Source: a virus
Virus record (IMG/VR): IMGVR_UViG_3300036401_000102
Span: 1-64,000 of that record
DNA: 64,000 bases
Direction: 5' to 3' (one strand)
Shown here: piece after piece, positions 26,792-61,894 of the stretch
How positions within the stretch are numbered: position 1 is the first letter of the stretch
How the letters are laid out: each line of letters opens with the position of its first letter
Made by a program: the position numbers and the translations under genes
The notes under the pieces: model-generated
What the model was told of the DNA's origin: nothing
The model's input: only the letters and a program-made list of their open reading frames with translations
Database searches by the model: none

Positions 26792-26800
26792 CCCTACCCG

Positions 26801-28048: not shown

Positions 28049-28061
28049 CATGGGGTGAGGA

Positions 28062-28337
28062 ATGCGCAAGAAATATCAGCGGCTGCAGGATTGGGAACGG
28101 CAGGCCATCGTGGACGGCTACGCCAACGGTGAAAAACTGGCGGTCCTCGCCACCGAGTTCAATTCCTCAGACAGCACTATTTCCCGCATCGCGGAGCGCG
28201 CAGGGCTGGCGCGCCGTCGCCACATAAGCCGCGACCCGCCTGTGAAGTTTGAAGGCAAGCGAACGCGAAAGCGTCTCGCATGGCTCGTCCGGCAGGAGCG
28301 CGTAAAGAGGCGAGCGGATGCGAATCGGAGCCTGTGA
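28062..28337 (+). CDS. Small helix-turn-helix protein, 91 aa
   Basis: Starts MRKKYQRLQDWERQAIVDGY with GGTGAGGA upstream. The HTH reads GEKLAVLATEFNSSDSTISR, then AERAGLARRRH, of the homeodomain-like kind seen in small phage regulators. A basic C-terminus overlaps the RuvC-like gene by 20 bases. DNA-binding role likely, target unknown. Confidence 0.65.
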   Translation: MRKKYQRLQDWERQAIVDGYANGEKLAVLATEFNSSDSTISRIAERAGLARRRHISRDPPVKFEGKRTRKRLAWLVRQERVKRRADANRSL

Positions 28338-32182: not shown

Positions 32183-32185
32183 CTG

Positions 32186-34389: not shown

Positions 34390-34438
34390 CCTCGCCCGTC
34401 CGATTGGCGATATGAGTCCGGCGCCGCGAGTTTCTGAT

Positions 34439-34451
34439 CTCCATTGGTTGC
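34439..34451 (-). promoter_or_regulatory. Orphan leader motif GCAACCAATGGAG
   Basis: An exact copy of the recurring leader, pointing left, but no start codon follows within reach on that strand (only ATA and CTC triplets), and the opposite strand there holds the end of the J-like gene. Confidence 0.45.
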
Positions 34452-34462
34452 GCGTGGCGCCA

Positions 34463-34495
34463 GGGGGCCGCGTTCCTCCCGGTTCGCGGTCCCCC
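34463..34495. terminator. GC-rich hairpin, possible terminator
   Basis: GGGGGCCGCG pairs with CGCGGTCCCCC with one bulged T around a 12-base loop; GCAGTTTCAC follows. The T-run is short, so termination is uncertain. It lies between the J-like and ParB-like genes in a 147-base gap that otherwise holds only the orphan leader. Confidence 0.5.
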
Positions 34496-34536
34496 GCAGT
34501 TTCACATTTCAACCGAACACTTTGTGAGCAAGCAGC

Positions 34537-35064
34537 ATGGGATCACCGGGAGCGCCACGACGGGCTTCCGGTGATCGCCTCTCCGCTCCGGTCGACCACA
34601 TTGAGACGTGGCCCATCGGCAAGCTCAAGTCCCGCGCCGACAATCCGAACCTGCATTCCCCCGAACAAATTGAGCTTATCGCAAAGTCGTGGGACCGTCG
34701 CGGGCAGACGCAACTCATTTTGGTTGATGGCGACAAGGGGCCGACGTTCGGCGAGATCATCGCTGGCGAAGGCCGTCTCGCCGCTGCCAAGTTGCGCGGG
34801 CTCAAGAACGTTCGAGTCGGTGTTGCCATCGGGTGGCCGGAAGAAGAAAAACACGCCTATCGCATCATCGACAACCAACTCACGCGGCTGAGCGAGTGGG
34901 ACGGCGAACTGCTCGCGGCCGAAGTGAACGACCTCGACGCGGCGGGCTATGACGTGTCTCTGCTCGCGGTCGACGCGGACCTGTCGTTGCCACCAACGCA
35001 ACGGGCACCGCGATCGATTACGCCGCGATGCCCGACATGCAATCGGCCGATGCCGAAGAAGTAG
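34537..35064 (+). CDS. ParB-like N-terminal domain protein
   Basis: 175 residues. The ParB/Srx fold is seen in ETWPIGKLKSRADNPNLHSP, then LILVDGDKG, IIAGEGRLAAAKLRGL (box II equivalent) and AYRIIDNQLTRLSEWD. In many phages this domain is fused to a DNA methyltransferase; here the protein stops soon after, with a CPTCNRPMPKK tail that may bind zinc. No ParA or centromere is visible, so plasmid-style partitioning is unlikely. Last rightward gene before a leftward trio. Confidence 0.8.
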   Translation: MGSPGAPRRASGDRLSAPVDHIETWPIGKLKSRADNPNLHSPEQIELIAKSWDRRGQTQLILVDGDKGPTFGEIIAGEGRLAAAKLRGLKNVRVGVAIGWPEEEKHAYRIIDNQLTRLSEWDGELLAAEVNDLDAAGYDVSLLAVDADLSLPPTQRAPRSITPRCPTCNRPMPKK

Positions 35065-35319
35065 CTAGACGTGTTCGAGCTTGGCGACGACCTCGCCGCG
35101 CACCGTGATGAGGTCGCCCGCGCGCGTCTCGATCAGGCAGATGTCGTCGGGCTCGCAGCCGTACCATCCCGCCACGTCCATCTCGACTGACGGCCAGATG
35201 TGGCGATGCTGCTGGAACCACTGGCGCACGATGCTGCGCCCCGTGGCGATGTCGGTGACTTGGACGGTCGTGCCCTTGCCGAGCATCGTGTCCACGTCGG
35301 TGGTGGTGAGCAGACTCAT
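35065..35319 (-). CDS. Hypothetical protein, 84 aa
   Basis: Starts MSLLTTTDVDTMLGKGT; overlaps the 45-residue gene upstream by four bases. A beta-rich pattern (TTVQVTDIATGRSIVRQWFQ, GDLITVRGEVV) and one Cys. Convergent with the ParB-like gene, with directly abutting stops. Function unknown. Confidence 0.55.
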   Translation of the reverse strand: MSLLTTTDVDTMLGKGTTVQVTDIATGRSIVRQWFQQHRHIWPSVEMDVAGWYGCEPDDICLIETRAGDLITVRGEVVAKLEHV

Positions 35320-35453
35320 GGCGTCTTCCCCATCATGTTGCACGTCTTGATCCAGTCCAGCGCCTCGCCGCGCGTCGCAAACGTCTCGGCGGCTTCGATC
35401 CATTTCCAGATCGGATGCCATGCGGTCGGGGAGAGCATGATGATCGCGGTCAT
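35316..35453 (-). CDS. Small hypothetical protein, 45 aa
   Basis: Frame MTAIIMLSPTAWHPIWKWIE to KTCNMMGKTP, linked to both neighbours by overlapping stop/start codons, which is the main evidence. Contains three Trp near the centre (AWHPIWKW). Function unknown. Confidence 0.5.
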   Translation of the reverse strand: MTAIIMLSPTAWHPIWKWIEAAETFATRGEALDWIKTCNMMGKTP

Positions 35454-35851
35454 CACCGTGCCCCCTGCTCTTTCGCCGCATAACGCTTGCGCGCCTGCGT
35501 GGCCTTCGCTTCCATCGCTGACATGGCGATGTCGCGGCTACCGTAATATTCGGAGCCGTTACTCGCGCCGAACGACACGCCGTTTTTCGTAACATGGAAG
35601 CGGACTTCGACCGGTGCTGATGCTGCGACCACGTCTGCAGTAACGAGACGCCAGCCCCGATGCTCTGCGCGTCGCGCCGCCTTCTCGTCCTCAGACAATG
35701 CGCGGACCATGATCGGTCGGACGGTCCAGAGATAGCCGATAGCGCGGCCCTTGCGGTCAAGCAGGCCGAAGTCGCGTTTGGTGGTTTCGATCTTATTGAG
35801 ATCACCTCTGGTGATTTCGTCGACCGCTACGTGGTTGCTATAATCCGTCAT
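35453..35851 (-). CDS. Hypothetical protein, 132 aa
   Basis: Starts MTDYSNHVAVDEITRGDLNK six bases after a leader copy that ends in GGGGG instead of GGAG. Beta strands in the middle (RAIGYLWTVRPIMV, VEVRFHVTKNGVSFG), then a basic helical end (ATQARKRYAAKEQ). First gene of the leftward trio. Unknown function. Confidence 0.6.
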   Translation of the reverse strand: MTDYSNHVAVDEITRGDLNKIETTKRDFGLLDRKGRAIGYLWTVRPIMVRALSEDEKAARRAEHRGWRLVTADVVAASAPVEVRFHVTKNGVSFGASNGSEYYGSRDIAMSAMEAKATQARKRYAAKEQGAR

Positions 35852-35857
35852 GTCCGT

Positions 35858-35871
35858 CCCCCATTGGTTGC
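35858..35871 (-). promoter_or_regulatory. Variant leader motif GCAACCAATGGGGG
   Basis: Copy of the recurring leader with GGGGG replacing GGAG; six bases before the ATG at 35851. AACTATCTT lies upstream as candidate -10. Confidence 0.55.
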
Positions 35872-36024: not shown

Positions 36025-36228
36025 ATGAGAAAGCGCATCGAATGCAAGTCGTGCGAGGGGACCGGGATCATCGCGTTCCCCGAGGTGCGCAATCTTGGAA
36101 ACGAGCGGTTGCCTGCGATGCGGAGTTGGTGCTTGGGCTGCGGCGGTTACGGCTACTACGTGCTGCCGCAAGGTTCAAAGATCGTGACTTACGCAGGCGA
36201 GACGAAGACAGAGGAATGCCCGCAATGA
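36025..36228 (+). CDS. Small DnaJ-type zinc-finger protein, 67 aa
   Basis: CKSCEGTGI and CLGCGGYGY are two CxxCxGxG-type knuckles like half of a DnaJ zinc domain, used here as a stand-alone small protein. No strong ribosome site; an upstream GTG or TTG could be used instead. First gene of the long rightward operon that contains the sugar genes; it overlaps the next gene by four bases. Confidence 0.6.
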   Translation: MRKRIECKSCEGTGIIAFPEVRNLGNERLPAMRSWCLGCGGYGYYVLPQGSKIVTYAGETKTEECPQ

Positions 36229-36704
36229 GCGACGCGATACAGCCGACCGGCGCAATCCCCGCAGCGAACGTCAAGGAATGCGTCGCGCGGTCGATCTCGA
36301 AAGACGGCGCCACGGCGATGATGGTGTTCAAGATCGAGGACGGCACGCAGTTCGCGCTCACCGTGCCGGTCGCATCGCTTGGCAAGTTTCGGTCGATGGT
36401 CAACGACGTGTGCGATGACGCGCAGAAGTCGCAACTCGGCACCGGCATGGTGCAGATGAAGCGCCCGCACTCAATCGAGATCGGCAGCTCGGATCAAATC
36501 CGGGGCCACATCGCGATCACGTTCGACCGCGACATGCCGGAGGAAACGATATTCCTGATGCAGGACGCGATGGGTCTCGACGTGTCCGACGCGATGCAGA
36601 AGAACATATTCGGCCGCATGACGCCGGAGGACCGGCGCGCGCGCATGGCCCGGTCGGGTCAGATACTCGCGCCGAAGAAGACGCTCATCATTCCGGGGAA
36701 GTGA
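36225..36704 (+). CDS. Hypothetical protein, 159 aa
   Basis: MSDAIQPTGAIPAANVKECV start, ATGA overlap with the zinc-finger gene. Alpha/beta sequence with FKIEDGTQFALTVPVASLGK and IRGHIAITFDRDMPEETIF; a basic end (RRARMARSGQILAPKKTLII). No family recognised. Confidence 0.6.
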   Translation: MSDAIQPTGAIPAANVKECVARSISKDGATAMMVFKIEDGTQFALTVPVASLGKFRSMVNDVCDDAQKSQLGTGMVQMKRPHSIEIGSSDQIRGHIAITFDRDMPEETIFLMQDAMGLDVSDAMQKNIFGRMTPEDRRARMARSGQILAPKKTLIIPGK

Positions 36705-36705: not shown

Positions 36706-36990
36706 ATGAAAACTTTGACGGGCGACGATATCGCGATGGCGCAGAACGCGGTCGGTCTCGCGTTGTCATGGTGGGCAAAGCGCCGGGGAAGTAGCGGGTT
36801 CAAGACGCAACAGGTCGGGCGCCTGCGCCGCCTCAATGCGCGGCTGAACAAGATCAGCGACTATGCATATCCCTACAAGTCCGCCGACGTGATGCCGATC
36901 GATTGTGGGCGCGAGGTCATCATGCGCGTGGACGAGAAGAACGTGAAGCGCACGCGCGCGGCTGCGCGCAAGGCGAACAAGAATGTTTGA
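36706..36990 (+). CDS. Basic hypothetical protein, 94 aa
   Basis: A helical, strongly basic protein (GFKTQQVGRLRRLNARLNKI; ending KRTRAAARKANKNV). May bind nucleic acid. Its end overlaps the acetyltransferase start by eight bases. Confidence 0.55.
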   Translation: MKTLTGDDIAMAQNAVGLALSWWAKRRGSSGFKTQQVGRLRRLNARLNKISDYAYPYKSADVMPIDCGREVIMRVDEKNVKRTRAAARKANKNV

Positions 36991-38026
36991 AGTCCTCACC
37001 GCCCACGGCGCCGACGCGCTCAAATGGCAGCATGTCTGGGACCGCCTGCCGCACGATCTGCGCGATGTCCACTACTGCCCGGCTTACGGCCGCGTCCAGG
37101 AAGCGCTCGGCGGTCGCGCGATGTGCGCTGTCTACGAGTGGGAGGCATGGATCATCATGCAGCCGTTCATGCTGCGCGATATCGGCGAGACTGGCTATCG
37201 CGACATGACGAGCATGTACGGGCACGGCGGCCCGGTGAGCAACATGCGATCGACTTCGGCGCGCTCGCTCGCGGAGTGGATGGAAGTTGACTTCGCACGC
37301 TGGCGCGGTGAACAGAAAGTCGTCTCCGAGTTCTGCGCGCTGCACCCGATGATGGCCGGCGATCAAATCCGCCTCATCCATCCCGACGCCGTGCTGCGCG
37401 ACGTGCGCCAGACCGTGGCGATGCGGATCGACTGCACCGACGAAGTGATCGCGGCGGGGATGCGCGCCGACCGGCGGCAGAACTTGGTCAAGGCGTCCGC
37501 AATGCAGATCGGCCCTGTGATTGCCGACAAGGTTTGGGACATCTACACTGAGACGATGCAGCGCCACCATGTCGCTCCGCGCTGGCGGTTTCCGCTCTCA
37601 TACTTCCGCGCCTACAACTCCGAGCTATGGCCCGATCGCGCCGAGTTCATCGCGGCCTATGGCGACGACAATACGCGCGTCTCGGCATCGCTACTGCTGT
37701 TCGGCCATCACCACGCGCATTACCAGTTCACGGGTAACGATGCCGACGCGCCGCGCGGGGCGAACGACCGCATCATCATGGAAGCCGCCCGCCTCGCGCG
37801 CCGCGCCGGCTGCACGTGGCTGCTGCTCGGCGGTGGCACGACGTCGGCAGAGAGCGACTCGCTGCTCGCGTTCAAGGCGGGGTTCTCAAAGCACCGGTTC
37901 ATGGCGCGGAATTATCGCCGCATATTCGATCGCGAGGCGTACATTCGCCTCTCCAGCGAGGCGGGGCGCGACCCCACGAACGACGCCGAGTTTTTCCCGG
38001 CATACAGGGCGGCAGAGGCAGCATGA
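36983..38026 (+). CDS. FemAB/GNAT-like acetyltransferase
   Basis: 347 residues with the double-GNAT style of the FemAB/Acetyltransf_6 group: DVHYCPAYGRVQEALGG near the start, MRADRRQNLVKA in the middle, then ASLLLFGHHHAHYQF and LLLGGGTTSAESDSLLAFKA near the end. Such enzymes acylate amino-sugars or transfer amino acids in envelope glycan pathways. In this operon an N-acyltransferase is exactly what a nonulosonate route needs (LegH-like step), but that assignment is inference. Confidence 0.75.
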   Translation: MFEVLTAHGADALKWQHVWDRLPHDLRDVHYCPAYGRVQEALGGRAMCAVYEWEAWIIMQPFMLRDIGETGYRDMTSMYGHGGPVSNMRSTSARSLAEWMEVDFARWRGEQKVVSEFCALHPMMAGDQIRLIHPDAVLRDVRQTVAMRIDCTDEVIAAGMRADRRQNLVKASAMQIGPVIADKVWDIYTETMQRHHVAPRWRFPLSYFRAYNSELWPDRAEFIAAYGDDNTRVSASLLLFGHHHAHYQFTGNDADAPRGANDRIIMEAARLARRAGCTWLLLGGGTTSAESDSLLAFKAGFSKHRFMARNYRRIFDREAYIRLSSEAGRDPTNDAEFFPAYRAAEAA

Positions 38027-38502
38027 TTACCAAAGAGAACAGCCTTCGCGGCACCACGACCGACGCCGGCCAGACCGTCGAGATCATCAAGGCCGATGGC
38101 TCCGTGATGAAGCCGCTCGGCGGCGGCCCGTTCGCCTGGGGACCGCAACGCCGCGAGAGCATGGACAAGATGGTGGCCGACAACGTCGGTAGAATCAATC
38201 TGGCCAAGGCGCTGCTCGCATGGACCTACGGCGGCCCGGCCGATCCGCGCGTGACGCAATACTTCACGCGCTACCAGCACCGTGTCGTGCTGTCGCTCGG
38301 CAAGGACTGGGCGCTGCGCGCCGCCGACGTGCGTCAGGTGCTCGACGCGATCATTGCGACGGAACGCGAGACCGCGCAGAGCCGCGCCATGGTGGATATG
38401 ACGCCGGCCCCGGTTGTCACGGAACGCGGCGGCCTCCCTGGCGCACCGATCATCTGGGATACGAACGATGCGGGCCAGCGCGTCACAAAGCCGGGGGAGT
38501 GA
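38023..38502 (+). CDS. Hypothetical protein, 159 aa
   Basis: ATGA-type overlap with the acetyltransferase gene. The core (NLAKALLAWTYGGPADPRVT, YQHRVVLSLGKDWALRAADV) is a compact helical/beta block found in phage proteins of unknown role. Pro/Gly-rich C-terminus. Confidence 0.6.
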   Translation: MITKENSLRGTTTDAGQTVEIIKADGSVMKPLGGGPFAWGPQRRESMDKMVADNVGRINLAKALLAWTYGGPADPRVTQYFTRYQHRVVLSLGKDWALRAADVRQVLDAIIATERETAQSRAMVDMTPAPVVTERGGLPGAPIIWDTNDAGQRVTKPGE

Positions 38503-38503
38503 C

Positions 38504-38785
38504 ATGCGCAACGACGCTGAACTGATCAAGGCAATCGAGCCGCACGACATCGTGCAGATTATCCCGACCGACGATAACCGAGGCTTTGACGGGCTGCTCG
38601 CCGAGGTCGTCCGCAAGGAGACGTGGGGCGTGATCGCAGTGATCCGCACGATGGGTGTCGGCTCCAAGCTGGGCGTGCATCGCTTCCCGTGGTCGATGAT
38701 CGAGCCGACCGGCGGCCGGGCCGTGTTTGGCACCGATGGTAAGCGCGTCGGGGATCCGGGCGCCGCCGTCAAACATCATCCGTAG
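38504..38785 (+). CDS. Hypothetical protein, 93 aa
   Basis: MRNDAELIKAIEPHDIVQII start with GGGGGAGTGAC upstream. A small beta-barrel-like pattern (LLAEVVRKETWGVIAVIRTM). Unknown function; second small gene after the acetyltransferase. Confidence 0.55.
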   Translation: MRNDAELIKAIEPHDIVQIIPTDDNRGFDGLLAEVVRKETWGVIAVIRTMGVGSKLGVHRFPWSMIEPTGGRAVFGTDGKRVGDPGAAVKHHP

Positions 38786-38822
38786 ACTTGCATTCGCTTC
38801 GCCAAAATCCGATAGTTTTGCT

Positions 38823-38835
38823 CACACCAATGGAG
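38823..38835 (+). promoter_or_regulatory. Leader motif CACACCAATGGAG
   Basis: Recurring leader; GGAG eight bases before the ATG at 38844. CTTGCA, 18 bases, GATAGT upstream is a plausible promoter. Confidence 0.55.
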
Positions 38836-38843
38836 AGTCTCAC

Positions 38844-39296
38844 ATGAACTACAGTACAGCCGTTTTCCTGATCAATGACGCGGCTCGCGCCGTCTACGCG
38901 ACGTATGAGGCCGACGACAAGACCGCGCCGAAGACGTTGTTCAAGACCTTCGACAAGACCATCGCGGTCGGCGACTATGTCGTGGTCCCGACGAACACGC
39001 GCCACAAGATGACGGTCTGCAAGATCATTGAGGTCGACGTGGATTTCGATCTTGGCACGACCGACGAACTGGCGTGGGTCATCGGCAAGGTCGACAAGGC
39101 GATGTTCCAGAAGACGCTCGATCAGGAAGCCGTCGCCATCGCCGCCATCAAGTCGGCTGAACTGCGCAAGAAGCGCGAAGAGTTGCGCACCGCGCTGTTC
39201 GCCGATCACGCAGCCAAGCTCGCCGAACTCGACATCGCGCACGCCGGCAACGGTGGCGTTCTCGAAGCGCCGAAGACCGACGCGGCGACCGGATAA
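38844..39296 (+). CDS. Hypothetical protein, 150 aa
   Basis: Starts MNYSTAVFLINDAARAVYAT. A beta-rich first half (VGDYVVVPTNTRHKMTVCKI) and a helical, charged second half (LRKKREELRTALFADHAAKL). Carries its own leader and likely promoter, and is followed by the four-hairpin region. No family recognised. Confidence 0.65.
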   Translation: MNYSTAVFLINDAARAVYATYEADDKTAPKTLFKTFDKTIAVGDYVVVPTNTRHKMTVCKIIEVDVDFDLGTTDELAWVIGKVDKAMFQKTLDQEAVAIAAIKSAELRKKREELRTALFADHAAKLAELDIAHAGNGGVLEAPKTDAATG

Positions 39297-39304
39297 GGTT
39301 CGAC

Positions 39305-39443
39305 TTAGCCATGACCTCTTGCCCCGAGTCTCAGAGGAGTGGCTAATATGCCCGGGGGGCCATGCGGCCCCCCATTATCTCCTGCGGAGATAATCACTGC
39401 TGGTAGGGGGCGCCCGTGAGACATAGGGCGAAGGGTGCTCCCT
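39305..39443 (+). ncRNA. Candidate structured RNA with four hairpins
   Basis: Four consecutive stems, read on the plus strand: (1) TTAGCCA/TGGCTAA (39305/39340) with inner CCTCT/AGAGG; (2) GGGGGGCC-ATGC-GGCCCCCC (39354-39373); (3) ATTATCTCC-TGC-GGAGATAAT (39374-39394), touching stem 2; (4) AGGGGGCGCCC/GGGTGCTCCCT (39405/39433), 11 pairs with two G-T pairs that work only in the plus-strand RNA. It sits between the 38844 gene and the zinc-ribbon/sugar genes. A cis-regulatory RNA, a processing site or an unusual terminator are all possible. Confidence 0.55.
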
Positions 39444-39468
39444 CGATGCAGTTCAGGACCGACATCAT

Positions 39469-39657
39469 ATGCCGAGTTGCCCGAAATGCGGAAAGGTCAA
39501 GGTGCGCAAGCGCGCCGATGGCCGTCGCAAATGCAAGCGCTGCGGCGTGCTCCAGAGCGGCAAGTTTCTGAACCGATCCGGCCGCGTGACGCCGCATCAC
39601 CTCCCCGAGCACTTCATCGGCCCATCGCCCGAGGAGTTCCGATGCATCCGGACATGA
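39469..39657 (+). CDS. Zinc-ribbon protein, 62 aa
   Basis: MPSCPKCGKVKVRKRADGRR with CKRCG is a classic CxxC...CxxC ribbon in the first 27 residues, then a basic, Pro/His-containing tail. Its end overlaps the next gene's start by 16 bases. Probably binds nucleic acid. Confidence 0.65.
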   Translation: MPSCPKCGKVKVRKRADGRRKCKRCGVLQSGKFLNRSGRVTPHHLPEHFIGPSPEEFRCIRT

Positions 39658-39923
39658 TCAAATCCACTACCGGGCAGGCTGTCTATGGACAACTCGCAAA
39701 TCTGTTCACGCTCTTGGCGGTAAGTCCGCGCGATGAGGCTGAACTTATCCTTGCGACATTTGTGCTGACCTACTTTTGCAGCATCAAAGGCGGTGCTGCT
39801 GATACGGAGTCGGCCATCGATAGGTTCTGCGATGATCTGAGAAGACTGTCGGAAACAATGACGATGGACACCGAAGTCCAACGCGCCGCGACAGATACGA
39901 AAAGGTTTTTACATCGTGGTTGA
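39642..39923 (+). CDS. Hypothetical helical protein, 93 aa
   Basis: GAGGAGTTCCG is a strong ribosome site before MHPDMIKSTTGQAVYGQLAN. All-helical with an amphipathic segment (AELILATFVLTYFCSIKGGA). Overlaps the neuB-like start by eight bases, so translation may be coupled. Unknown role. Confidence 0.6.
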   Translation: MHPDMIKSTTGQAVYGQLANLFTLLAVSPRDEAELILATFVLTYFCSIKGGAADTESAIDRFCDDLRRLSETMTMDTEVQRAATDTKRFLHRG

Positions 39924-40860
39924 AGTCATCGCCGAGATCGGGCTGAACCATAACGGATCGCTGGACCGCGCCAAGAAGTTGATTGACGCCGCGAAGACTG
40001 CCGGCGCCGACACGGCGAAGTTTCAGGCGAGTCATCCCGAAGCCGAGATCAGCCGCCGCTACGAGCAGGCGCAGTTCGACATGATCAGCGAGTTGATCCT
40101 GGCCATGGACGAACTCGCGGTGTGCAAGGCGCACTGCGAACAGGTCGGAATGCGGTTTCTCTGCACCCCGGCCGACGTGCGCAGCATTGACGCTCTCGTT
40201 GCGATGGGCGTCGACCGGCTCAAGATCGGCAGCGACAACCTGACGAACGCGGAGTTTCTGTACCACGCCGAGGAAACGTTGCTGCCGCTCATCGTCTCCA
40301 CCGGCATGGCGAACGATGCGGAGATCGCGGCGGCGTGCGAACTCGTCGGCTATTACCAACTCACGCTGCTCCACTGCACCAGCGCGTACCCGTGTGACGT
40401 GAAGGACGCGAACCTCGCGGCGATCCCAAGCATGATCGCGCAGTGGCCCGCGCTGATCGGTTGGTCCGACCACACCACGTCGCTCACGCTACCCGCCGTC
40501 GCGGTTGGGCTCGGCGCCGTGATAATCGAGAAGCACATCACGTTGAGCCGGAGCGACGATGGCCCGGACCATGATGCATCGCTTACGCCGGAGATGTTCG
40601 AGGAAATGGTGCGTCGCATCCGCGAGACCGAGGCCGCGATGGGCGACGGCGAAAAGCGGATGATGGATTGCGAGATCCAGACGGCGTACCGGATGCGCAA
40701 GAGCCTGATCGCCGCAGAGCCGATCCGCGCGGGCGAGACATTCACCCGCGCGAACCTCACCGCGAAGCGCCCAGGCTGGGGCCACTCCGCAATGGACTAT
40801 CACGCGCGGCTCGGCACGGTCGCGATGCGGGACTACGACGCAGACGAGATGGTGGATTGA
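39916..40860 (+). CDS. NeuB-family nonulosonic acid synthase
   Basis: 314 residues, GTG start. The TIM-barrel N-terminus has VIAEIGLNHNGSLDRAKKLI, FQASHPEAEIS, FLCTPADVRSIDAL and the HIT-like EKHITLSRSDDGPDH block; the C-terminus is a SAF domain (LIAAEPIRAGETFTRANLTA). This family condenses phosphoenolpyruvate with a 6-carbon 2-acetamido sugar to give a 9-carbon nonulosonate (Neu5Ac, legionaminate or pseudaminate). About 30 residues shorter than typical NeuB. Neighbouring genes point to a legionaminate-like product. Confidence 0.92.
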   Translation: MVEVIAEIGLNHNGSLDRAKKLIDAAKTAGADTAKFQASHPEAEISRRYEQAQFDMISELILAMDELAVCKAHCEQVGMRFLCTPADVRSIDALVAMGVDRLKIGSDNLTNAEFLYHAEETLLPLIVSTGMANDAEIAAACELVGYYQLTLLHCTSAYPCDVKDANLAAIPSMIAQWPALIGWSDHTTSLTLPAVAVGLGAVIIEKHITLSRSDDGPDHDASLTPEMFEEMVRRIRETEAAMGDGEKRMMDCEIQTAYRMRKSLIAAEPIRAGETFTRANLTAKRPGWGHSAMDYHARLGTVAMRDYDADEMVD

Positions 40861-41027
40861 TGCCCATTGATCCTCGCGCAGCAAGAATCAAAATAGATGG
40901 CGGCCAAGTCTATGTCACCGAGTCCTATCTGATGCAGACGATGAGAAACTCTCGCCGCGATGGTTTGATTGTCGGTCTTATGCTCGGTCTCGTCGTGGGT
41001 TTCTTCGCAAGGTCTTTTTTTCAATGA
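40860..41027 (+). CDS. Small tail-anchored membrane protein, 55 aa
   Basis: MPIDPRAARIKIDGGQVYVT start; a polar first half and a C-terminal membrane helix (DGLIVGLMLGLVVGFFARSF). TGATG overlap with the NeuB-family gene and a four-base overlap with the cytidylyltransferase gene tie it to the sugar operon. Such tail anchors occur in small phage proteins that tether enzymes; inference only. Confidence 0.6.
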   Translation: MPIDPRAARIKIDGGQVYVTESYLMQTMRNSRRDGLIVGLMLGLVVGFFARSFFQ

Positions 41028-41677
41028 AAATCCTTACCATCATCCCCGCTCGCATGGGCTCCAAGCGCATCCCGCAGAAGAACCTAGCGATGCTGGGCGA
41101 GTGGCCGCTGTTCGTGTGGGCGATCAACGCGGCGCACGCGGCGGGGCAGTATTGCGTGCACGTCTCGACCGACAGCCCGATCACAGCCAACATCGCACAG
41201 CAATACGGGTGCCACGCACCACATCGCCCCCCCGCTCTCGCTGGCGATGATGTCCCCATGATCAATGTGGTGCGCGAGCTTGCGAGCCGACACGCGGACA
41301 GTGGGTTTGACGCGGTGCTCTTGCTGCAGCCTACGTCCCCGTTCCGCACCGCCGACGACATTCGCGCAGCGATCAAACTGATGGAAGAGAACGGCGCCGA
41401 GTCCGTGATCTCGGTCACCGACGCGCCGAGCGATCTCGTGTTCGAGGTCGGCCACGCCGGACGGCTGCGCAACATCCGCGCCATTGACCCGCTCGTGGTT
41501 CCGAACGGCGCGATCTTCCTGATCAGGACCGAGTTCGTGTTCACCTCGACGTGGTGGGACTGCGTCGCCTATGCGTACCGGATGCCGAAGGAACGATCGA
41601 TCGACATCGACACGGCGGCCGATCTGGAGCAGGCGCGCGACATGGTCGCGAAGATGGAGCGCAGCAATGCCGTTTGA
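41024..41677 (+). CDS. CMP-nonulosonate cytidylyltransferase (NeuA/LegF-like)
   Basis: 217 residues with the family signature IPARMGSKRIPQKNLAMLG at the N-terminus (nucleotide binding), LLQPTSPFRTADDI, PNGAIFLIRT and the metal-binding SIDIDTAADLEQA end. It activates a nonulosonic acid with CTP to CMP-sugar, the donor for transferases. Length is normal for the bacterial single-domain type. Overlaps both neighbours by a few bases. Confidence 0.93.
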   Translation: MKILTIIPARMGSKRIPQKNLAMLGEWPLFVWAINAAHAAGQYCVHVSTDSPITANIAQQYGCHAPHRPPALAGDDVPMINVVRELASRHADSGFDAVLLLQPTSPFRTADDIRAAIKLMEENGAESVISVTDAPSDLVFEVGHAGRLRNIRAIDPLVVPNGAIFLIRTEFVFTSTWWDCVAYAYRMPKERSIDIDTAADLEQARDMVAKMERSNAV

Positions 41678-42806
41678 CCCTCGCGTGGTCGTGGACGCGG
41701 TACGCAGCGTCATAGGGCCGGGCAAGGTCGGGCTGCACGACCCGGACATAGCGATGATCGACCTCACGAACGTCGCGCACTGCGCGCTCAATGAGCCGGT
41801 CGGCTATGGCTACATCAACCAACTCGAAATGCTCCTGGCCGCGAAGTGCCAGCGCGAGCACGCCGTTGCGGTGTCCAGCGGGACCGCCGCGCTGCACCTC
41901 GCATTGCTGGCGGTGGGCGTCCGGCCCGGCGACGAGGTCATAGTGCCCGACATGACGTTCATTGCGGCGGCCAATGCGGTGACGTATTGCGGCGCGCATC
42001 CGCTGTTGCTCGACGTGAACCACGACGGGTTGAGCGGCGTCTACGCAGGCGGATTGCTGGCAGAGTTCCTTGATATGTCAGTGCTACGCAAGAGCGGCCG
42101 ATATTCTCCCATAACCGGACGTAGGCTCGCCGCCGTTATCGTAGTGGATCTATTGGGCGTCCCGGCCGATCTCGCTACCACGGCCGCGCTCTGCAATGCC
42201 TACGGCGTTCCTATGATCGAGGACGCAGCCGAGGCGTTGGGTAGCTCAGCTCACGGCGCGGCATGCGGCTCGTTCGGCGACGTGTCGATACTGAGCTTCA
42301 ACAACAACAAGATCGTCACCAGCGGCGGCGGCGGCGCGGTGCTGACCAATGACGAGCGCATAGCGGCGCGCGTCCGCTACCTCGCCACCACGGCCAAGGT
42401 CCCGTTCACGGCCCGCTATGATCACACTGAGGTCGGCTTCAACTACCGCATGCCGAACCTATGCGCCGCGCTCGCGCTCGGGCAGCTACAGCGCATAGGG
42501 GAGTTGGTGAAGCGCAAGCGGGCTCTCGCTGCGCGTTACGGTAATGCTTTCGCTTCTGAGTTTGACGTAATCGATAGCACCGTGCCCTACGCAAACTGCT
42601 GGCTCAATGCGATCAATATTGAGCCAGAGAACCACGCGCCCACAATGCAGGCGCTGGCCGACGCCGGCATTCCGTGCCGCGCGCTGTTCACCCCGCTCCA
42701 TAGGCAGGCGCCGTACCGGGACGCACCGCGCATCGCAGCGTCGCGGGCCACGGCGGACTTCCTGTTCGAGCGCATCGTCTGCCTGCCATCGGGGCCGAAC
42801 CTGTGA
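41667..42806 (+). CDS. DegT/DnrJ/EryC1 aminotransferase (LegC/PseC-like)
   Basis: 379 residues. PLP enzyme with SSGTAALHLALLAVGVRPGD, VPDMTFIAAANAV, EDAAEALGS and the Schiff-base Lys215 in SFNNNKIVTSGGGGAV, followed by FNYRMPNLCAALALGQL. The NNNK-IVTSGGGG form is typical of LegC-type enzymes that add an amino group to C4 of a UDP-4-keto-6-deoxy sugar. This enzyme is not needed for ordinary sialic acid, so it points to a 7-amino nonulosonate. The C-terminus ends at SGPNL, a little short. Confidence 0.9.
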   Translation: MPFDPRVVVDAVRSVIGPGKVGLHDPDIAMIDLTNVAHCALNEPVGYGYINQLEMLLAAKCQREHAVAVSSGTAALHLALLAVGVRPGDEVIVPDMTFIAAANAVTYCGAHPLLLDVNHDGLSGVYAGGLLAEFLDMSVLRKSGRYSPITGRRLAAVIVVDLLGVPADLATTAALCNAYGVPMIEDAAEALGSSAHGAACGSFGDVSILSFNNNKIVTSGGGGAVLTNDERIAARVRYLATTAKVPFTARYDHTEVGFNYRMPNLCAALALGQLQRIGELVKRKRALAARYGNAFASEFDVIDSTVPYANCWLNAINIEPENHAPTMQALADAGIPCRALFTPLHRQAPYRDAPRIAASRATADFLFERIVCLPSGPNL

Positions 42807-43015
42807 CGACATGGCGACATAAGAAACGCGGCACGGTCTACGAGATCGTTAGCGATAGCGCATCGATCCAGTGTTCTGCTGCGCCAGATTTCGAGGCGCA
42901 ATTTGAGAACGAGAACTGGACTGTCTACCGCAACGTCGCAACCGGAGCGGTTTGGGTGCGGCCGACCGAGGAATTCATGGACGGCCGCTTTGAGCGCATT
43001 GAGGAACCAGAATGA
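42803..43015 (+). CDS. Small DUF1653-like protein, 70 aa
   Basis: GTG start overlapping the aminotransferase stop. TTWRHKKRGTVYEIVSDSAS, then WTVYRNVATGAVWVRPTEEF: the order resembles the DUF1653 type (Y-x-H-x-K-G-x-x-Y-E-V ... VYR). Small beta protein common in phages, function unknown. Confidence 0.6.
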   Translation: MTTWRHKKRGTVYEIVSDSASIQCSAAPDFEAQFENENWTVYRNVATGAVWVRPTEEFMDGRFERIEEPE

Positions 43016-44073
43016 AAGTTGCTGTAATCACCACATCCCGCGCCGATTGGAACGCCCTCGGCATGGTGGCCGACGCGATGCGGGCCGATGGCGGGTTCGA
43101 TGTCAGTATCGTCATGGTCGACAGCGTGCAGGGCAAAGCGGTACGTGATGAAGGATGGTTCCCTTCCATCATTTACTCCGGCGCGGGCTCATCGTATCCG
43201 ACGCGATCTGGAAACATAGTCGATGCTGTGGGCGACCTATTGCTCAGAGAAAATCCCGACCTCGTCATGATCCTCGGCGACCGGTGGGAAACCCTCGCCG
43301 TAGCGATGGGCGCCGCAATGGCGGGCATACCGATCGCGCACCTGTCCGGCGGCGACATCACCTACGGCTCGCTCGACGACCGCTACAGGAACGCGATCAG
43401 CCATCTTTCGCAGTGGCACTTCGCGACGCATAAGGACGCGGTGTTGCGACTGCTCAAGATGGACGTTCCGGGCCGCGTCTGGAACGTCGGATCTCCGGCC
43501 GTTGATCGCATCGCGCAGACCGAATGCTACGGACGCGCCGCAGTGATGGAAATGTGCGGGCTCGCACAATGCGAACATCTCGCTCTGATCAATTGGCAGC
43601 CCGAGACGGCGAACAAAGACCCCAATCTAGGTTTGCGTGAACTGCTCTTCGAAGTCGGCGCCTACGACCCTGACAAATGGGCTTATGTGTTCGTCGGCCA
43701 GAACGACGACGTCAGGTCGAAAGAAGCCGCCGCGATGATCGCGAGACACACGCGACCGAACACCGTCATCATCCCGAACATGGCGCCGCGCCTCTACCTG
43801 TCCGCGCTGCGCTGGTGCGACGTGCTCGTAGGAAATTCATCGAGCGGTATCTATGAGGCGCCGGCATTCGGAACTCCTGTCGTCAACATCGGTGACCGGC
43901 AACGCGGTCGGCCCACGCCGCGCAACGTCGTCCATGCTGAGCGCAACAGCACCGACATATCCGCCGCTATTACGAACGTCGTGATGCGCGGGCGCCTCGA
44001 TGCAGACCTGCTATTTGGCGACGGCACCGCATCACAAAAGATCGTCGAGGTTCTCAAACACTTGCCGTTGTAG
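43012..44073 (+). CDS. Hydrolysing UDP-sugar 2-epimerase (NeuC/LegG-like)
   Basis: 353 residues of the GT-B-fold epimerase family: VAVITTSRADWNALGMVADA, DLVMILGDRWETLAVA, HLSGGDITYGSLDDRYRNAI and VGNSSSGIYEAPAFGTPVVN followed by RQRGR. Family reaction: UDP-2-acetamido sugar to UDP plus the ManNAc-type sugar that NeuB uses. Combined with the aminotransferase it fits LegG acting on a 2,4-diacetamido sugar. Complete length. Starts inside the end of the DUF1653-like gene. Confidence 0.92.
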   Translation: MKVAVITTSRADWNALGMVADAMRADGGFDVSIVMVDSVQGKAVRDEGWFPSIIYSGAGSSYPTRSGNIVDAVGDLLLRENPDLVMILGDRWETLAVAMGAAMAGIPIAHLSGGDITYGSLDDRYRNAISHLSQWHFATHKDAVLRLLKMDVPGRVWNVGSPAVDRIAQTECYGRAAVMEMCGLAQCEHLALINWQPETANKDPNLGLRELLFEVGAYDPDKWAYVFVGQNDDVRSKEAAAMIARHTRPNTVIIPNMAPRLYLSALRWCDVLVGNSSSGIYEAPAFGTPVVNIGDRQRGRPTPRNVVHAERNSTDISAAITNVVMRGRLDADLLFGDGTASQKIVEVLKHLPL

Positions 44074-44085
44074 GGAGTGCTCCGC

Positions 44086-44607
44086 ATGTATGCGACCGCG
44101 CAGGAAATGAGAGCGAGCTATCACGCGATCAGGACACGTCTCTATGGAGACCGCTGGTCCGAAACTGCGCCGGAAATTGTGATCGAGCCCGAGCCGTTCG
44201 TGATGGAGGACGAGCCGGAGAGGTTCAAATACGAGCGGTCTCCCGTGCTCTACTTCGCACCGCTGCACATGGCCAAGCGCCCCGCGATCGTGATGACGAC
44301 GTTCTGCCGCGTCTCCGGCATGACGCGCGAGCAGGTTTGGCAGCATTGCCGCGCCGCACGGGTCGGAAACCCCCGTGCCATCGCGTGGCGGCTGCTGCGT
44401 GAGTTTACGGGCATGTCGTGGCTTAGCATCGCCAAGCTTGGCGGGTTCGATCACACATCGGTGCTGTACGGCGTCCAGCGATCGGCTGTGCTGGTCAAGA
44501 GCAAGCCGGAGATGCGCGTGCTCTACGAGACGGCTCGCGCGCACATCCTGGCGGTGATCGCGAAACAGAACAACCCGCAATTCGTGATAGACGAGGGCGC
44601 GTTATGA
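44086..44607 (+). CDS. DnaA domain IV-like DNA-binding protein
   Basis: 173 residues. The C-terminal half (AIAWRLLREFTGMSWLSIAK, LGGFDHTSVLYGVQRS) is the DnaA-box-binding helix-turn-helix with the DHTSV signature; there is no AAA+ ATPase domain. The N-terminal 90 residues are unlike DnaA. It could mark a phage origin, or compete with host DnaA. GGGAG nine bases before the ATG supports this start. Confidence 0.78.
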   Translation: MYATAQEMRASYHAIRTRLYGDRWSETAPEIVIEPEPFVMEDEPERFKYERSPVLYFAPLHMAKRPAIVMTTFCRVSGMTREQVWQHCRAARVGNPRAIAWRLLREFTGMSWLSIAKLGGFDHTSVLYGVQRSAVLVKSKPEMRVLYETARAHILAVIAKQNNPQFVIDEGAL

Positions 44608-45182
44608 CATTCGATCATGCATGGGAAGCGGAGCACGCGCGCAGGCAATGGGGCACGCTGGCAAACGAACACCTCGTGCGCTTCATTACGCGCAACTACG
44701 CCGAGGGATCGCTATGCCACTTCCTCGACCTCGGCGCGGGGGCCGGCGCGCAGTCCATGTTCCTGTCCAATCACGGCCGCGTCGTTGCGGTTGATGGATC
44801 ACAGACCGCTCTCGACCGCATTCGTCACGCCACGCCGTGCATCGTTACGCAATGCATCGACCTCGTCGAATTGCAGTTCCCGCAATATCAGTTCGACTGC
44901 ATCGTGGACGTGGCGAGCCTGCAGTGCCTGCCGATCGACGAGGCATGGGTGATCATCAAGCGCGCGCGCCGCTGGCTCAAGCCGGGCGGGTTCTTCTTCT
45001 CGTTCACCGACGCAGGGTCTGACCCCGCGCTCCACACCATCGGCGCCGTCTATCCGCGTACCGAACTCGAATTGACCCATATGTTCAGCGGCTACGACGT
45101 GAGACGTGGCAGCGAGACAGTTGAGCGGCCGGATGGCACCCGCACGGCACACTGGATCATCGAGGCCAAGGTCAAGCCGTGA
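44604..45182 (+). CDS. Class I SAM-dependent methyltransferase
   Basis: 192 residues. FLDLGAGAGAQSMFLSNHGR is the SAM glycine motif, VVAVDGSQTALDRI the acidic second strand, and DCIVDVASLQCLPIDEAWVI, then ARRWLKPGGFFFSFTD the rest of the core. Similar to small-molecule or sugar methyltransferases rather than DNA enzymes (no DPPY/NPPF). In this operon it could methylate the nonulosonate or a linked glycan; inference. ATGA-type overlap with the preceding gene. Confidence 0.8.
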   Translation: MTFDHAWEAEHARRQWGTLANEHLVRFITRNYAEGSLCHFLDLGAGAGAQSMFLSNHGRVVAVDGSQTALDRIRHATPCIVTQCIDLVELQFPQYQFDCIVDVASLQCLPIDEAWVIIKRARRWLKPGGFFFSFTDAGSDPALHTIGAVYPRTELELTHMFSGYDVRRGSETVERPDGTRTAHWIIEAKVKP

Positions 45183-46164: not shown

Positions 46165-46581
46165 ATGGCAGCACCGAAGGGACACAAGCGATACGGCGGC
46201 CGGACGAAGGGCCAGACCAACCTTGCGACGCGCGAGCGTGAGGCGGCCGTCGCCGAGGCGCTGAGTAATCCGTCGTCAGACGATACGCTGAGCAAGCGCA
46301 CGCTGGTCAAGGTGATCAAGCATTTTGAGGGGCTCGCGGCGAAGCACAAGGCGGCTGGGGACGAGAAATCGTTCATGCACTGCCTCAAGCTCGCGGGGGA
46401 CTTCGCGGCCAAGCTGATGCCGTTCCAGTATCCGACGCTGCAGTCCGTCGCCGTTCGCCAACTGCCACCGCTCCGACCAGAGGATCTGGATGACGATCAA
46501 CTTCGAGCGGCTATCGCTCTTGAGAGCGCGCTTACCGCCGCTGGCGGAGATGCAGGCCGAACTCTTAAGACGGTCAACTAG
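46165..46581 (+). CDS. Putative terminase small subunit
   Basis: 138 residues. The N-terminus (GHKRYGGRTKGQTNLATRER) has the Gly/Lys/Thr-rich opening common in small terminase subunits, followed by helices including LVKVIKHFEGLAAKHKAAG. It overlaps the large subunit start by 92 bases in another frame. The call rests mainly on position and style. DNA-recognition role expected. Confidence 0.6.
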   Translation: MAAPKGHKRYGGRTKGQTNLATREREAAVAEALSNPSSDDTLSKRTLVKVIKHFEGLAAKHKAAGDEKSFMHCLKLAGDFAAKLMPFQYPTLQSVAVRQLPPLRPEDLDDDQLRAAIALESALTAAGGDAGRTLKTVN

Positions 46582-48199
46582 CGCTGCCGTCACGCATGAC
46601 CGCGACGCGGTGCGCGAGCGCTGCAAGACGCTGAGCGGGTTCATCCGCGAGGCGTGGCACGTGATCTTTCCCGCTACGCCGTACGTCGAGAACTGGCACA
46701 TCGAGGCGAAGTGCGCGCACTTCGAGGCGGTCAGTCGCGGCGCGCTGCTCGCGTTGGGGTACGAGAACCGCATCGTGACGAACGAGCCCCCAGGCACGAT
46801 GAAGAGCTTGGCGATGTGCGTGTTCTGGCTGGCCTACGAGTGGGGTCCGCTGAACATGGCCGAGCTGCAGGCCATCGCTGCGTCGTACCGCATCGACTTC
46901 TGTCTCCGCGATCAAGCGCGGTTCTCCAAGCTCGTGAACAGCGGCTGGTATCAATCGTTATGGCCGCACGTCGAGATCACCGGCGACTCGTCGACGAAAC
47001 TTGAGAACTCGCGCGGCGGCAAGCGCGAGGCAATTCCGTTCCCGTCGCTGACCGGCGCACGGTCCGATCGGCTCTACATCGACGATCCTCATTCCGTTGA
47101 CACGGCCGAGTCGGACGCAGACCGCGAGAGCGCAGAGCGGAGATTTCGCGAAAGCGCGACAAACCGCATGAACGACCCGATCACATCGTTCATCGGCGTG
47201 ATCATGCAGCGGCTTCACCAGATGGACATCACGGGCGTGATCGCCAAGAGCCGGATGCCGTATCTGCATCTGCTGTTCCCGATGCGGTTCGACCCGCAGC
47301 GATGCTGCTACTCGCCCGTGCCAAACGACACCAAGCCGCAGCGGATGCGCCATCTGTGGTCGCGCCAGATGTGGCTGCCCGATACTTGGAAGCCGGTTGC
47401 GGAAGGTGAACAGGCGTGGGCCGAAGAGTTTGCGTCGGCTCGCGTCGAGACTGTGTACCGATGGGACAAGCGTACCAAGGCTGGAGAGTTGCTGTTCCCC
47501 GACCGTTTTCCGCGCGCCGTGGTCGAGCGCGACGAGGCCGCGATGGGGGCGCACGCCACGGCGTCGCAATACGATCAGCGGCCCAATCCGCGCGGCGGCC
47601 TCAAGTTCAAGCGCCACAACTTCCCGATCGTGAAGGCGGTCCCGAGCGGATGCCGCACCGTGCGTGGCTGGGACTTGGCGGCATCGGAGAACCGCAATTC
47701 GGCCTATACGTGCGGGCTCAAGCTGTCGTTCCATCCCCCGACGCGGCATTTCTACGTCGAGCACGTCGTGCGGGTGCGCACCGAGAACGTCGAGCCGGTC
47801 ATTCTCAACACTGCGCGCCAGGACAATAACAACGGCCATCGCGTCGAGATCAGCCTGCCGCAGGATCCGGGGCAGGCCGGCAAGGTCCAGGTCAAGGCGC
47901 TCGTCGGCGCGCTGATCGGCTTCATCGTGCATCGGTCCCCGGAGAGCGGCGACAAGCTGGCGCGCGCCGAGCCTGTGATCGCGCAGTCCGAGGCGGGAAA
48001 CATCTCGATCCTTGAGGGCGATTGGAACGAGGCGTTCCTCGACGAGATCGAGCTATTCCCGTCTGGCACGTTCAAGGATCAGGTCGACGCCCTCTCGCGT
48101 GCGTTCAGCCGATTCGTTATGACTCCGATGGAGTACGTCATGCCGCCAATCGTGGTGACGCGGCAGCGGGAGACGGCGTGGGACAATCAAGGGAACTGA
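46490..48199 (+). CDS. terL: Terminase large subunit
   Basis: 569 residues. ATPase: Walker A-like NEPPGTMKSLAM (about 97-108), Walker B DRLYIDDPHSVDTAESD; nuclease: RGWDLAASEN and LFPSGTFKDQVDALSRAFSR, with the metal-binding Asp residues in the usual places. It powers DNA packaging and cuts concatemers. The start (MTINFERLSL) has AGAGGATCTGG upstream but lies inside the small-subunit gene; an ATG 20 codons later is an alternative. Confidence 0.93.
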   Translation: MTINFERLSLLRARLPPLAEMQAELLRRSTSAAVTHDRDAVRERCKTLSGFIREAWHVIFPATPYVENWHIEAKCAHFEAVSRGALLALGYENRIVTNEPPGTMKSLAMCVFWLAYEWGPLNMAELQAIAASYRIDFCLRDQARFSKLVNSGWYQSLWPHVEITGDSSTKLENSRGGKREAIPFPSLTGARSDRLYIDDPHSVDTAESDADRESAERRFRESATNRMNDPITSFIGVIMQRLHQMDITGVIAKSRMPYLHLLFPMRFDPQRCCYSPVPNDTKPQRMRHLWSRQMWLPDTWKPVAEGEQAWAEEFASARVETVYRWDKRTKAGELLFPDRFPRAVVERDEAAMGAHATASQYDQRPNPRGGLKFKRHNFPIVKAVPSGCRTVRGWDLAASENRNSAYTCGLKLSFHPPTRHFYVEHVVRVRTENVEPVILNTARQDNNNGHRVEISLPQDPGQAGKVQVKALVGALIGFIVHRSPESGDKLARAEPVIAQSEAGNISILEGDWNEAFLDEIELFPSGTFKDQVDALSRAFSRFVMTPMEYVMPPIVVTRQRETAWDNQGN

Positions 48200-61045: not shown

Positions 61046-61894
61046 ATGAAGATCGCGCTCATCGGCACCGCCCCGCTCTCCCGCGACATCGCGCCGTACA
61101 ACGATCCGGAGTGGACGATTTGGGCGTGCTCCGGTGCCAACGCCGGCAACGCACTGCCCAGGATCGATGCGTTCTTTGAACTGCACGCCCTCGTCGACAT
61201 GACTGCGCACGAGAACCAAGGCTCTGCGATGCCGTTCTATGGCTGGCTCCGCACCCAGTCGTTTCCGGTCTACATGCAGGAGAAGAACGCGCTCGTTCCG
61301 CAGGCCATCGTGTTCCCGCGCGATGAGATGTTGGCCAAGTTCGGACGCAACTGGTTCACGTCGACCGTAGCGTGGATGATGGCGTTCGCGATCAACCAGA
61401 TGAAGACCGGCGACACGATCGGGATATTCGGCGTCGACATGGCGGCGAACATGGAACACTACACCGCGCAGCGCGCCGGGTGTCAGCGTTTCATCGAGAT
61501 CGCCGAGGAACGCGGTATCAAGATCGTGGTGCCGTACGAGTCCTGTCTCGCCGCACCGACGCCGCTCTACGGCTATAGCGAGGCGACACGGCTCGGGCGC
61601 AGGCTCAACGCCACACTCAACCAGTTGCAGCGGCATCGTGGCGATATGATCGCGCGGCGCGATAAGATGTCTGAGGAAATCGCCTACTTCGCTGGCGCGA
61701 TCGAACAGGTCCAGTACATGATTCGCACATGGACCGATGGCGCGGACGCGAAGTTCGAAGGCCATGTCGAGACCGAACTGGACAGGATTGAAGCCACGCC
61801 ATTCCGTGGGACGGTTGATCCGGACGACTTCGAACAGACCGGCGCGTTGCTTGTGCCGAGGGCCAAGCGCAACGGCCACGCCAAGGAGGCGTAG
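61046..61894 (+). CDS. MptE/DUF115-like Rossmann protein, possible glycosyltransferase
   Basis: 282 residues. KIALIGTAPLSRDIAPYNDP, TIWACSGANAG, FFELHALVDM, NWFTSTVAWMMAFAINQMKT and IGIFGVDMAANMEHYTAQRA, then IVVPYESCL, follow the order of MptE-like/DUF115 domains, also found in Maf proteins that add nonulosonic acids to flagellin. Similar genes sit in phage head-tail clusters with unknown function. With a CMP-nonulosonate pathway in the same genome, transfer of that sugar to a virion protein is a reasonable but untested idea. The C-terminal 90 residues are helical. Confidence 0.6.
   Translation: MKIALIGTAPLSRDIAPYNDPEWTIWACSGANAGNALPRIDAFFELHALVDMTAHENQGSAMPFYGWLRTQSFPVYMQEKNALVPQAIVFPRDEMLAKFGRNWFTSTVAWMMAFAINQMKTGDTIGIFGVDMAANMEHYTAQRAGCQRFIEIAEERGIKIVVPYESCLAAPTPLYGYSEATRLGRRLNATLNQLQRHRGDMIARRDKMSEEIAYFAGAIEQVQYMIRTWTDGADAKFEGHVETELDRIEATPFRGTVDPDDFEQTGALLVPRAKRNGHAKEA

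Follow-up and report, generated by a model that had tools for sequence, protein, structure and literature searches.

Can a phage encode most of the route to a sialic acid-like sugar and, if so, which sugar would be made and where would it be placed? This question is raised by an operon in the IMG/VR record IMGVR_UViG_3300036401_000102, an uncultivated virus record of 66,722 bases classed as linear, of which bases 1-64000 were analyzed here as the window. A preliminary description, made from the sequence alone, had proposed that the operon carries a near-complete pathway for a cytidine monophosphate (CMP)-activated, legionaminic-like nonulosonic acid. Independent gene calls as well as Pfam, NCBIfam and PHROGs scans of window proteins found every enzyme gene named there at the coordinates originally reported, with family scores far above chance. 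Overall, we consider it fairly probable that a phage-inherited cassette makes a CMP-activated legionaminate-type nonulosonic acid, used late and most likely on virion proteins. The genes encoding the main enzymes of the cassette are:

36983..38026, + strand: g62, FemX/FemAB-like double-GNAT transferase (PF13480, Acetyltransf_6, 30 bits)
39916..40860, + strand: g68, NeuB/LegI-type nonulosonate synthase with a C-terminal SAF domain (PF03102, 229 bits against a cut-off of 22; PF08666)
41024..41677, + strand: g70, NeuA/LegF-type CMP-nonulosonate cytidylyltransferase (PF02348, CTP_transf_3, 75 bits)
41667..42806, + strand: g71, LegC-type pyridoxal phosphate (PLP)-dependent sugar 4-aminotransferase (DegT aminotransferase family, 260 bits)
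43012..44073, + strand: g73, NeuC/LegG-type hydrolysing uridine diphosphate (UDP)-sugar 2-epimerase (TIGR03568, NeuC_NnaA, 254 bits against a cut-off of 236)
44604..45182, + strand: g75, class I S-adenosylmethionine (SAM) methyltransferase at the end of the cassette (Methyltransf_25, 53 bits)

Alignments showed that g68 keeps the NeuB motifs IAExGxNHNG, KFQ, STGM, SDHT and EKH, with KRPG in the SAF domain, that g70 keeps the NeuA motifs ARxGSKxxxxKN, LQPTSPxR and SIDID, and that g71 keeps the LegC motifs IEDAAEALGS, SFNxNK and NYRMPN, including the Schiff-base Lys in SFNNNK; g73 keeps GDRxE, GGD and the LDD that follows. The aligned residues in these four proteins are presumed to have catalytic roles. 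Among NCBIfam models, g68 scored higher with NeuB_NnaB (315 bits) than with PseI (220 bits), both under cut-off, and the best model for g71 was LegC (TIGR04181; 338 bits, under the cut-off of 420) as compared to 213 bits for PseC. In the PDB, g70 matched NeuA (1eyr; E = 4e-19), and the best sequence match of g73 was a hydrolysing diacetylbacillosamine 2-epimerase (5xvs; 135 bits), as compared to 104 bits for human GNE. PHROGs contained no match to the window NeuB; a search of 50,697 phage records gave NeuB relatives in three, one of them a bacterial contig filed by mistake, which was also the only record with NeuC.

IMG/VR was scanned with alignments for relatives of the cassette, the loci being limited to the DNA fetched. 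As far as this DNA reaches, the ordered set FemX-like - NeuB - NeuA - LegC - NeuC - methyltransferase was found in 15 other IMG/VR contigs (L024, L030, L038, L053, L054, L091, L092, L093, L094, L095, L168, L169, L172, L173 and L176), which come from other metagenomes and include near-duplicates (approx. 12 lineages); no methyltransferase was seen with the cassette in L093. Identities of the proteins of these sister phages to those of the window were 27-33% for the FemX-like protein, 36-43% for NeuB, 39-49% for NeuA, 40-43% for LegC, 32-37% for NeuC and 27-31% for the methyltransferase, which occurs in one to two copies per cassette (at the same place as g75 in L030, L038, L054, L094 and L095). 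In the window, the genes directly downstream and beyond include those for packaging and the head:

46490..48199, + strand: terminase large subunit (TerL; PF17289, phrog_38), directly downstream of the cassette
48995-50653: portal, downstream of the cassette
59013-60020: major head protein, downstream of the cassette

In 11 of the 15 loci of this clade (clade 1), the cassette is followed downstream by homologs of TerL, the portal or both (46-67% identity); in L053, L091, L092, L094 and L168, the terminase homolog that follows is 46-57% identical to that of the window. In L093 and L095, the neighbors of the cassette are tail and amidase genes that belong to a different phage lineage.

Pairwise ratios of nonsynonymous to synonymous substitution rates (dN/dS) ranged from 0.08 to 0.41 for the NeuA, NeuB, NeuC, LegC, methyltransferase and FemX-like genes, with dN inflated as open reading frames (ORFs) were read from stop to stop. 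These sequence comparisons indicate purifying selection on the cassette genes and their long maintenance. In the LegC tree, the window and its phage sisters formed one clade (SH-aLRT support 98) inside a group with support of 95, the bacterial members of which are mostly found in LegB-LegC-NeuC-NeuB-NeuA operons. The phage NeuA proteins also formed one clade (98). In the NeuC tree, the window grouped with ten sisters (95), and all sisters grouped with three other viral contigs (99); this phage clade is not nested in the LegG group and adjoins a group that includes NeuC-type enzymes from clusters without LegC.

All cassette genes are on the + strand, mostly overlapping and just upstream of the terminase gene. 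The gene junctions from g61 onward are -8, -4, +1, +58, +345, -8, -1, -4, -11, -4, -4, +12 and -4 bases (negative values being overlaps), with two true intergenic gaps at 38786-38843 (58 bases) and 39297-39641 (345 bases); the overlaps of 1-8 bases described previously were thus nearly right, except that one overlap has 11 bases and that two real gaps are present. GC content is flat across the window (0.61-0.64). The genes of the block originally delimited at 36983-45182 are present there, but the conserved block begins further upstream, with g60 at 36225.

Of the known routes, the gene content is closest to the legionaminate part of the pathway, with LegC-LegG-LegI-LegF-type genes that are phage-owned and selected. 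LegC is identified by its best model, by the PLP Lys and by its clade among Leg operons. For a LegG acting on UDP-diacetylbacillosamine, NeuC_NnaA scores over cut-off and the best PDB match is 5xvs, but the tree places g73 outside the LegG group. The LegI synthase and LegF cytidylyltransferase are assigned at the level of the family (NeuB, CTP_transf_3, catalytic motifs) rather than the sub-family. PseC and PseI models each scored below the LegC and NeuB models, and neither a PseG nor a dehydratase was found in the record, where a 2-epimerase is present instead, which argues against a pseudaminic pathway. All three families of the N-acetylneuraminic acid (Neu5Ac) pathway, i.e., NeuC, NeuB and NeuA, are present, and LegC argues against plain Neu5Ac. 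The earlier deduction of a legionaminate type from an aminotransferase together with an epimerase is therefore supported by LegC but not by the NeuC tree; as this tree leaves LegG and NeuC functions unseparated, the preference for legionaminate over Neu5Ac comes solely from LegC. The pathway is not complete, as the LegC, LegG, LegI and LegF part is present while LegB and LegH/PglD were looked for and not found.

A route can be proposed in which the host, rather than the phage, would supply UDP-4-keto-6-deoxy-GlcNAc, to which LegC, judged by homology, would add a 4-amino group. The fold, catalytic Lys and position of g62 suggest that it would then acylate the 4-amine, an aminoacyl-tRNA probably being the donor of an amino acid in place of the acetyl group transferred by LegH. 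By homology, the NeuC/LegG protein (two motifs of which are degenerate) would release UDP and invert C2, NeuB would condense the product with phosphoenolpyruvate, and NeuA would make the CMP-sugar. The methyltransferase may cap this sugar or another product.

The preliminary description had seen in g62 a FemAB-like acetyltransferase for N-acylation; the FemAB likeness was borne out, but g62 resembles the aminoacyl-tRNA-dependent FemX rather than an acetyl-CoA enzyme. The g62 family profile matched FemX (4ii9; E = 1.4e-10) and aminoacyl-tRNA-dependent peptide synthases, and an AlphaFold (AF2) model of g62 (mean predicted local distance difference test score, pLDDT, 86) matched FemX in Foldseek (template modeling score, TM, 0.74; E = 2e-15), with Sbb17/Sba18 bound to streptothrisamine as the next best match. 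Its invariant Lys298 aligned with FemX Lys305 (position taken from the printed alignment with a one-residue chain offset), which is the catalytic residue of FemX (2026 review, PMC12945691). The model thus combines the double-GNAT fold with the catalytic Lys of FemABX transferases such as FemX, Sbb17/Sba18 and Orf11. On the other hand, g62 is only approx. 15% identical to these transferases and sits in a sugar-nucleotide operon. Orf11, a FemABX-type enzyme, is Gly-tRNA-dependent and acts on streptothrisamine, so it aminoacylates an amino sugar intermediate (PMC12945691). As g62 shows a FemX fold, an aligned catalytic Lys and a suggestive gene position, it is likely, judging from the model, to acylate the amine of the 4-amino sugar in an aminoacyl-tRNA-dependent manner. 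Our best-supported guess is that the 4-amine (at C7 in the final acid) receives an aminoacyl group, with acetyl transfer as the alternative; no LegH/PglD-type acetyltransferase accompanies the other enzymes, the FemX-like protein being the sole acyltransferase in the cassette.

The unchanging position of the cassette next to packaging and structural genes favors a late glycosylation, with the virion as its most likely target. Of the uses previously suggested, virion and host-surface glycans thus both stand, with a leaning towards the virion. The CMP-sugar would be transferred late by an enzyme for which one candidate is encoded in the head/tail module of the window:

61046..61894, + strand: g109, candidate nonulosonate-associated transferase (weak; by genomic association)

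The g109 family was found in one INPHARED record and in 66 IMG/VR contigs. NeuA, NeuB or NeuC were located within 10 kb in 29 of these 66 contigs, as compared to 2 of 80 contigs with terminase relatives (P = 3e-10; Fisher's exact test), and the association persisted after dereplication and removal of the contigs used to build the profiles (22/56 vs. 2/73; P = 8e-8). The structural model of g109 was modest (pLDDT 70), with weak likeness to thiamin pyrophosphokinase (TPK) and to a phage MptE-like protein. In the sister contigs L093, L095 and L169, Maf-like proteins (PF01973) are encoded just upstream of the cassette, and this family matched 5MU5 (E = 9e-7), the Maf glycosyltransferase of Magnetospirillum magneticum (PMC9298399). 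No PF01973 match was found in the genome of the window, and homology of g109 to the Maf-like family is not claimed (hhalign profile comparison probability 0.9%). We regard g109 and the Maf-like proteins of sister phages as candidate sugar transferases, g109 as a candidate only. It is tempting, if speculative and rather doubtful, to picture a phage family that makes a chemically new nonulosonic acid from a host 4-keto sugar nucleotide, with an amino acid placed on its amine by the FemX-like enzyme, and that puts this acid on its own particles with a g109-type or Maf-like transferase.

Several observations weigh against a legionaminate-type pathway serving the virion. The preliminary description held that all key motifs are kept, which was upheld for the main motifs of NeuB, LegC and NeuA but not for NeuC, as the N-terminal TGMHL segment is missing from g73 and the conserved His of its HPxT motif is replaced by Gln (LINWQPET). 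The sister phages are without the same segment, and Gln is also found in L095. The C terminus of g71 is at CLPSG, approx. 20 residues early, and the LegC proteins of sister phages stop at about the same place. As the sister phages share the NeuC gap and the LegC end point, both seem to characterize a phage branch and not to stem from decay in a single copy. Also adverse are the scores of the synthase, LegC and cytidylyltransferase, all under the NCBIfam cut-offs of the named families, and the NeuB tree, which does not unite the phage proteins and pairs the window with one sister contig (98) amid long branches. Because of these branches, no argument on monophyly was drawn from the NeuB tree; as it splits the phage proteins, the synthase gene may have been exchanged. 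No known sialyltransferase family was found among the window genes scanned against Pfam (for most of the other larger window genes, the scan was against PHROGs), and g109 was detected, besides the window, in the contig of L092 but not in the other cassette contigs searched. Finally, neither LegB (phmmer) nor any PF01370 match was found in the 66,722-base record, which is linear and perhaps incomplete.

This last search agrees with the earlier statement that a LegB-type 4,6-dehydratase is missing. The sister contigs also had no LegB-like or other PF01370 protein, save one match approx. 14 kb from the cassette in the contig of L095. Conversely, in L150 the genes next to the terminase encode a nucleotidyltransferase, NeuA, a radical SAM protein, a WbuX amidotransferase (over cut-off), a HisF-like protein, a LegB-like protein (329 bits to LegB; cut-off 475), LegC, NeuC, NeuB and a PglD-like hexapeptide transferase. 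As phages with and without a dehydratase both exist, the simplest reading is that the 4-keto sugar comes from the host, and the 4,6-dehydratase activity is probably supplied by the host for the window phage.

L150 belongs to a second virus-only NeuC lineage (L026, L126, L136, L146, L150, L158 and others), in which fuller pathways beside terminase genes include LegB-like, LegC, NeuC, NeuB, PglD-like, WbuX amidotransferase, HisF-like and radical SAM proteins. A further viral arrangement, LegC-NeuA-NeuB-SDR-NeuC (SDR, short-chain dehydrogenase/reductase), was observed in L101, L105, L112, L113, L128, L149 and L160; the SDR of L105 is nearest to PseB (177 bits) and not to LegB (50 bits).

Alternatively, the core NeuC-NeuB-NeuA could make CMP-Neu5Ac, or a relative derived from N-acetylmannosamine (ManNAc), from host UDP-N-acetylglucosamine (UDP-GlcNAc) without any dehydratase, with LegC, the FemX-like protein and the methyltransferase modifying the same or another sugar. 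The absence of a dehydratase from the record and nearly all relatives would fit such a route, as would the NeuC phage clade, which adjoins NeuC-type enzymes from LegC-less clusters and lies outside the LegG group. We nevertheless judge it unlikely, as LegC branches among Leg operons and is present wherever the fetched DNA of a sister cassette extends that far, the PDB sequence closest to g73 is the LegG-type 5xvs rather than human GNE, and the second viral lineage has LegB beside LegC. A different alternative concerns the use of the sugar, not its synthesis: late in infection or in lysogens, host transferases could attach it to O-antigen, capsule or flagellin of the host envelope, where it would block other phages or help release. 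The window is without a recognized phage transferase, prophage-encoded enzymes that modify nonulosonic acids are known in Acinetobacter (PMC12053666), and alphaproteobacterial hosts can have cytosolic nonulosonate transferases, e.g., Caulobacter FlmG (PMC7591256). Against this, the cassette adjoins terminase and structural genes across the clade, it occurs together with Maf-like transferases in three sister contigs, and no integrase family turned up in the Pfam and PHROGs scans; use on the envelope thus appears somewhat unlikely.

Phages are known to modify their DNA with sugars, and sugar on DNA had been listed among the possible uses. The genome has DNA methyltransferases, but neither a hydroxymethylpyrimidine or base-hypermodifying gene nor a DNA glycosyltransferase was seen in the Pfam and PHROGs scans; with no modified-base gene able to carry a sugar, decoration of phage DNA was rejected as very improbable. 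Misplaced host DNA (i.e., an assembly chimera) or a transient, decaying acquisition would accord with the frequency of nonulosonate genes in bacterial genomes and the contamination that can affect viral metagenomes (PMC3877843). As the same cassette recurs between homologous phage genes in many contigs, with low dN/dS, overlapping genes and flat GC content, decay is hardly conceivable and a chimera is rejected on synteny; the proposal of a phage operon, not host contamination, thus holds.

The cassette of legionaminate type shares LegC-, LegG/NeuC-, LegI/NeuB- and LegF/NeuA-type enzymes in one operon with the bacterial CMP-legionaminic pathway (LegB-C-H-G-I-F) of Campylobacter jejuni and Legionella, represented in our comparison set by a Rhizobium WL3 plasmid (L012). 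Unlike that pathway, it is without LegB, has a FemX-like protein in place of a LegH/PglD-type acetyltransferase, consists of compact enzymes, adds a methyltransferase and sits in a phage late region. With the sialic acid neuC-neuB-neuA pathway it shares all three core families, hydrolysing epimerase included, but adds LegC and the FemX-like protein, which are unneeded for Neu5Ac. Variant enzyme sets do exist, as the Sps pathway of Bacillus subtilis is a non-standard legionaminate route (PMC7439481); in contrast to the phage cassette, it is chromosomal and serves the spore crust. Phage genes that act on bacterial nonulosonic acids, i.e., epaA/epaB (PMC12053666) and O-acetyltransferases (PMC6586298), alter a host-made sugar, whereas the window encodes most of the synthesis. 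In uncontaminated viromes, neuB was represented by 126 reads in 8 viromes and neuA by 11 reads in 5 (PMC3877843), an earlier sign of viral carriage without operon or context. In the literature searched, which excluded subscription papers and preprints, no description of a nonulosonate synthesis pathway encoded by a phage was found. If a phage does encode most of the route to a sialic-like sugar, its particles or its host would bear a novel type of coat. From the FemX-like step, one would expect a sugar in which translation, through aminoacyl-tRNA, is tied to the making of glycans. With the recurring cassette, a second lineage that bears LegB, and g109 and the Maf-like proteins as candidates, the scattered virome neuB reads become a defined system open to experiment.

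Other genes in and around the cassette are:

36225..36704, + strand: g60, small protein conserved (synteny) directly upstream of the FemX-like gene; 26-34% identical to the same-place gene in L024, L030, L054 and L094, with a profile match in L172 too
38023..38502, + strand: g63, small protein weakly like DUF6166 (E = 0.005), conserved between g62 and NeuB; profile match of 42 bits to the same-place gene in L024, L030, L054 and L094
40860..41027, + strand: g69, putative membrane protein of 55 residues (ORF and overlaps only), overlapping NeuB and NeuA
42803..43015, + strand: g72, protein of 70 residues (ORF with 4-base overlaps on both sides)
44086..44607, + strand: g74, DnaA domain IV-like DNA-binding protein (PF08299, 36 bits; start maybe 44077)

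The g74 gene lies within the sugar operon, with NeuC before it and the methyltransferase after it, and is outside the conserved cassette set. In L030 (5255-6208) and L094 (6912-7835), two extra genes separate NeuB from NeuA; the second one of L030 encodes a polysaccharide deacetylase domain (PF01522).

A simple promoter and terminator scan of the window gave nothing useful. In window 21673-35871, for the most part the early region, a leader box, GCAACCRATGGAG, immediately precedes many early genes of either strand; there are 8 exact copies, and 12 copies at up to 2 mismatches, where 4.0 of the latter would be expected. An alphaproteobacterial host is suggested by two matches among 44 window proteins scanned together, namely a homolog of the GcrA cell-cycle regulator and an Rcc01698-like tail protein; the same scan showed a C5 cytosine methylase and a NADAR protein. 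The window TerL is closest to those of Erythrobacter and Rhizobium phages. The Moritella "phage" record FPLJ01000048.1 (L004), with NeuB and NeuC, is a Moritella viscosa bacterial capsule contig filed among phages and was not counted. In a 484 kb huge phage (LR756508.1; L006), four glycosyltransferase family 29 proteins (eukaryote-type sialyltransferases; 7253-7885, 9984-10667, 10648-11328 and 11325-12074; 94-112 bits against a cut-off of 23) flank a NeuB-like gene at 7920-8819, and these genes are possibly a phage sialylation module.

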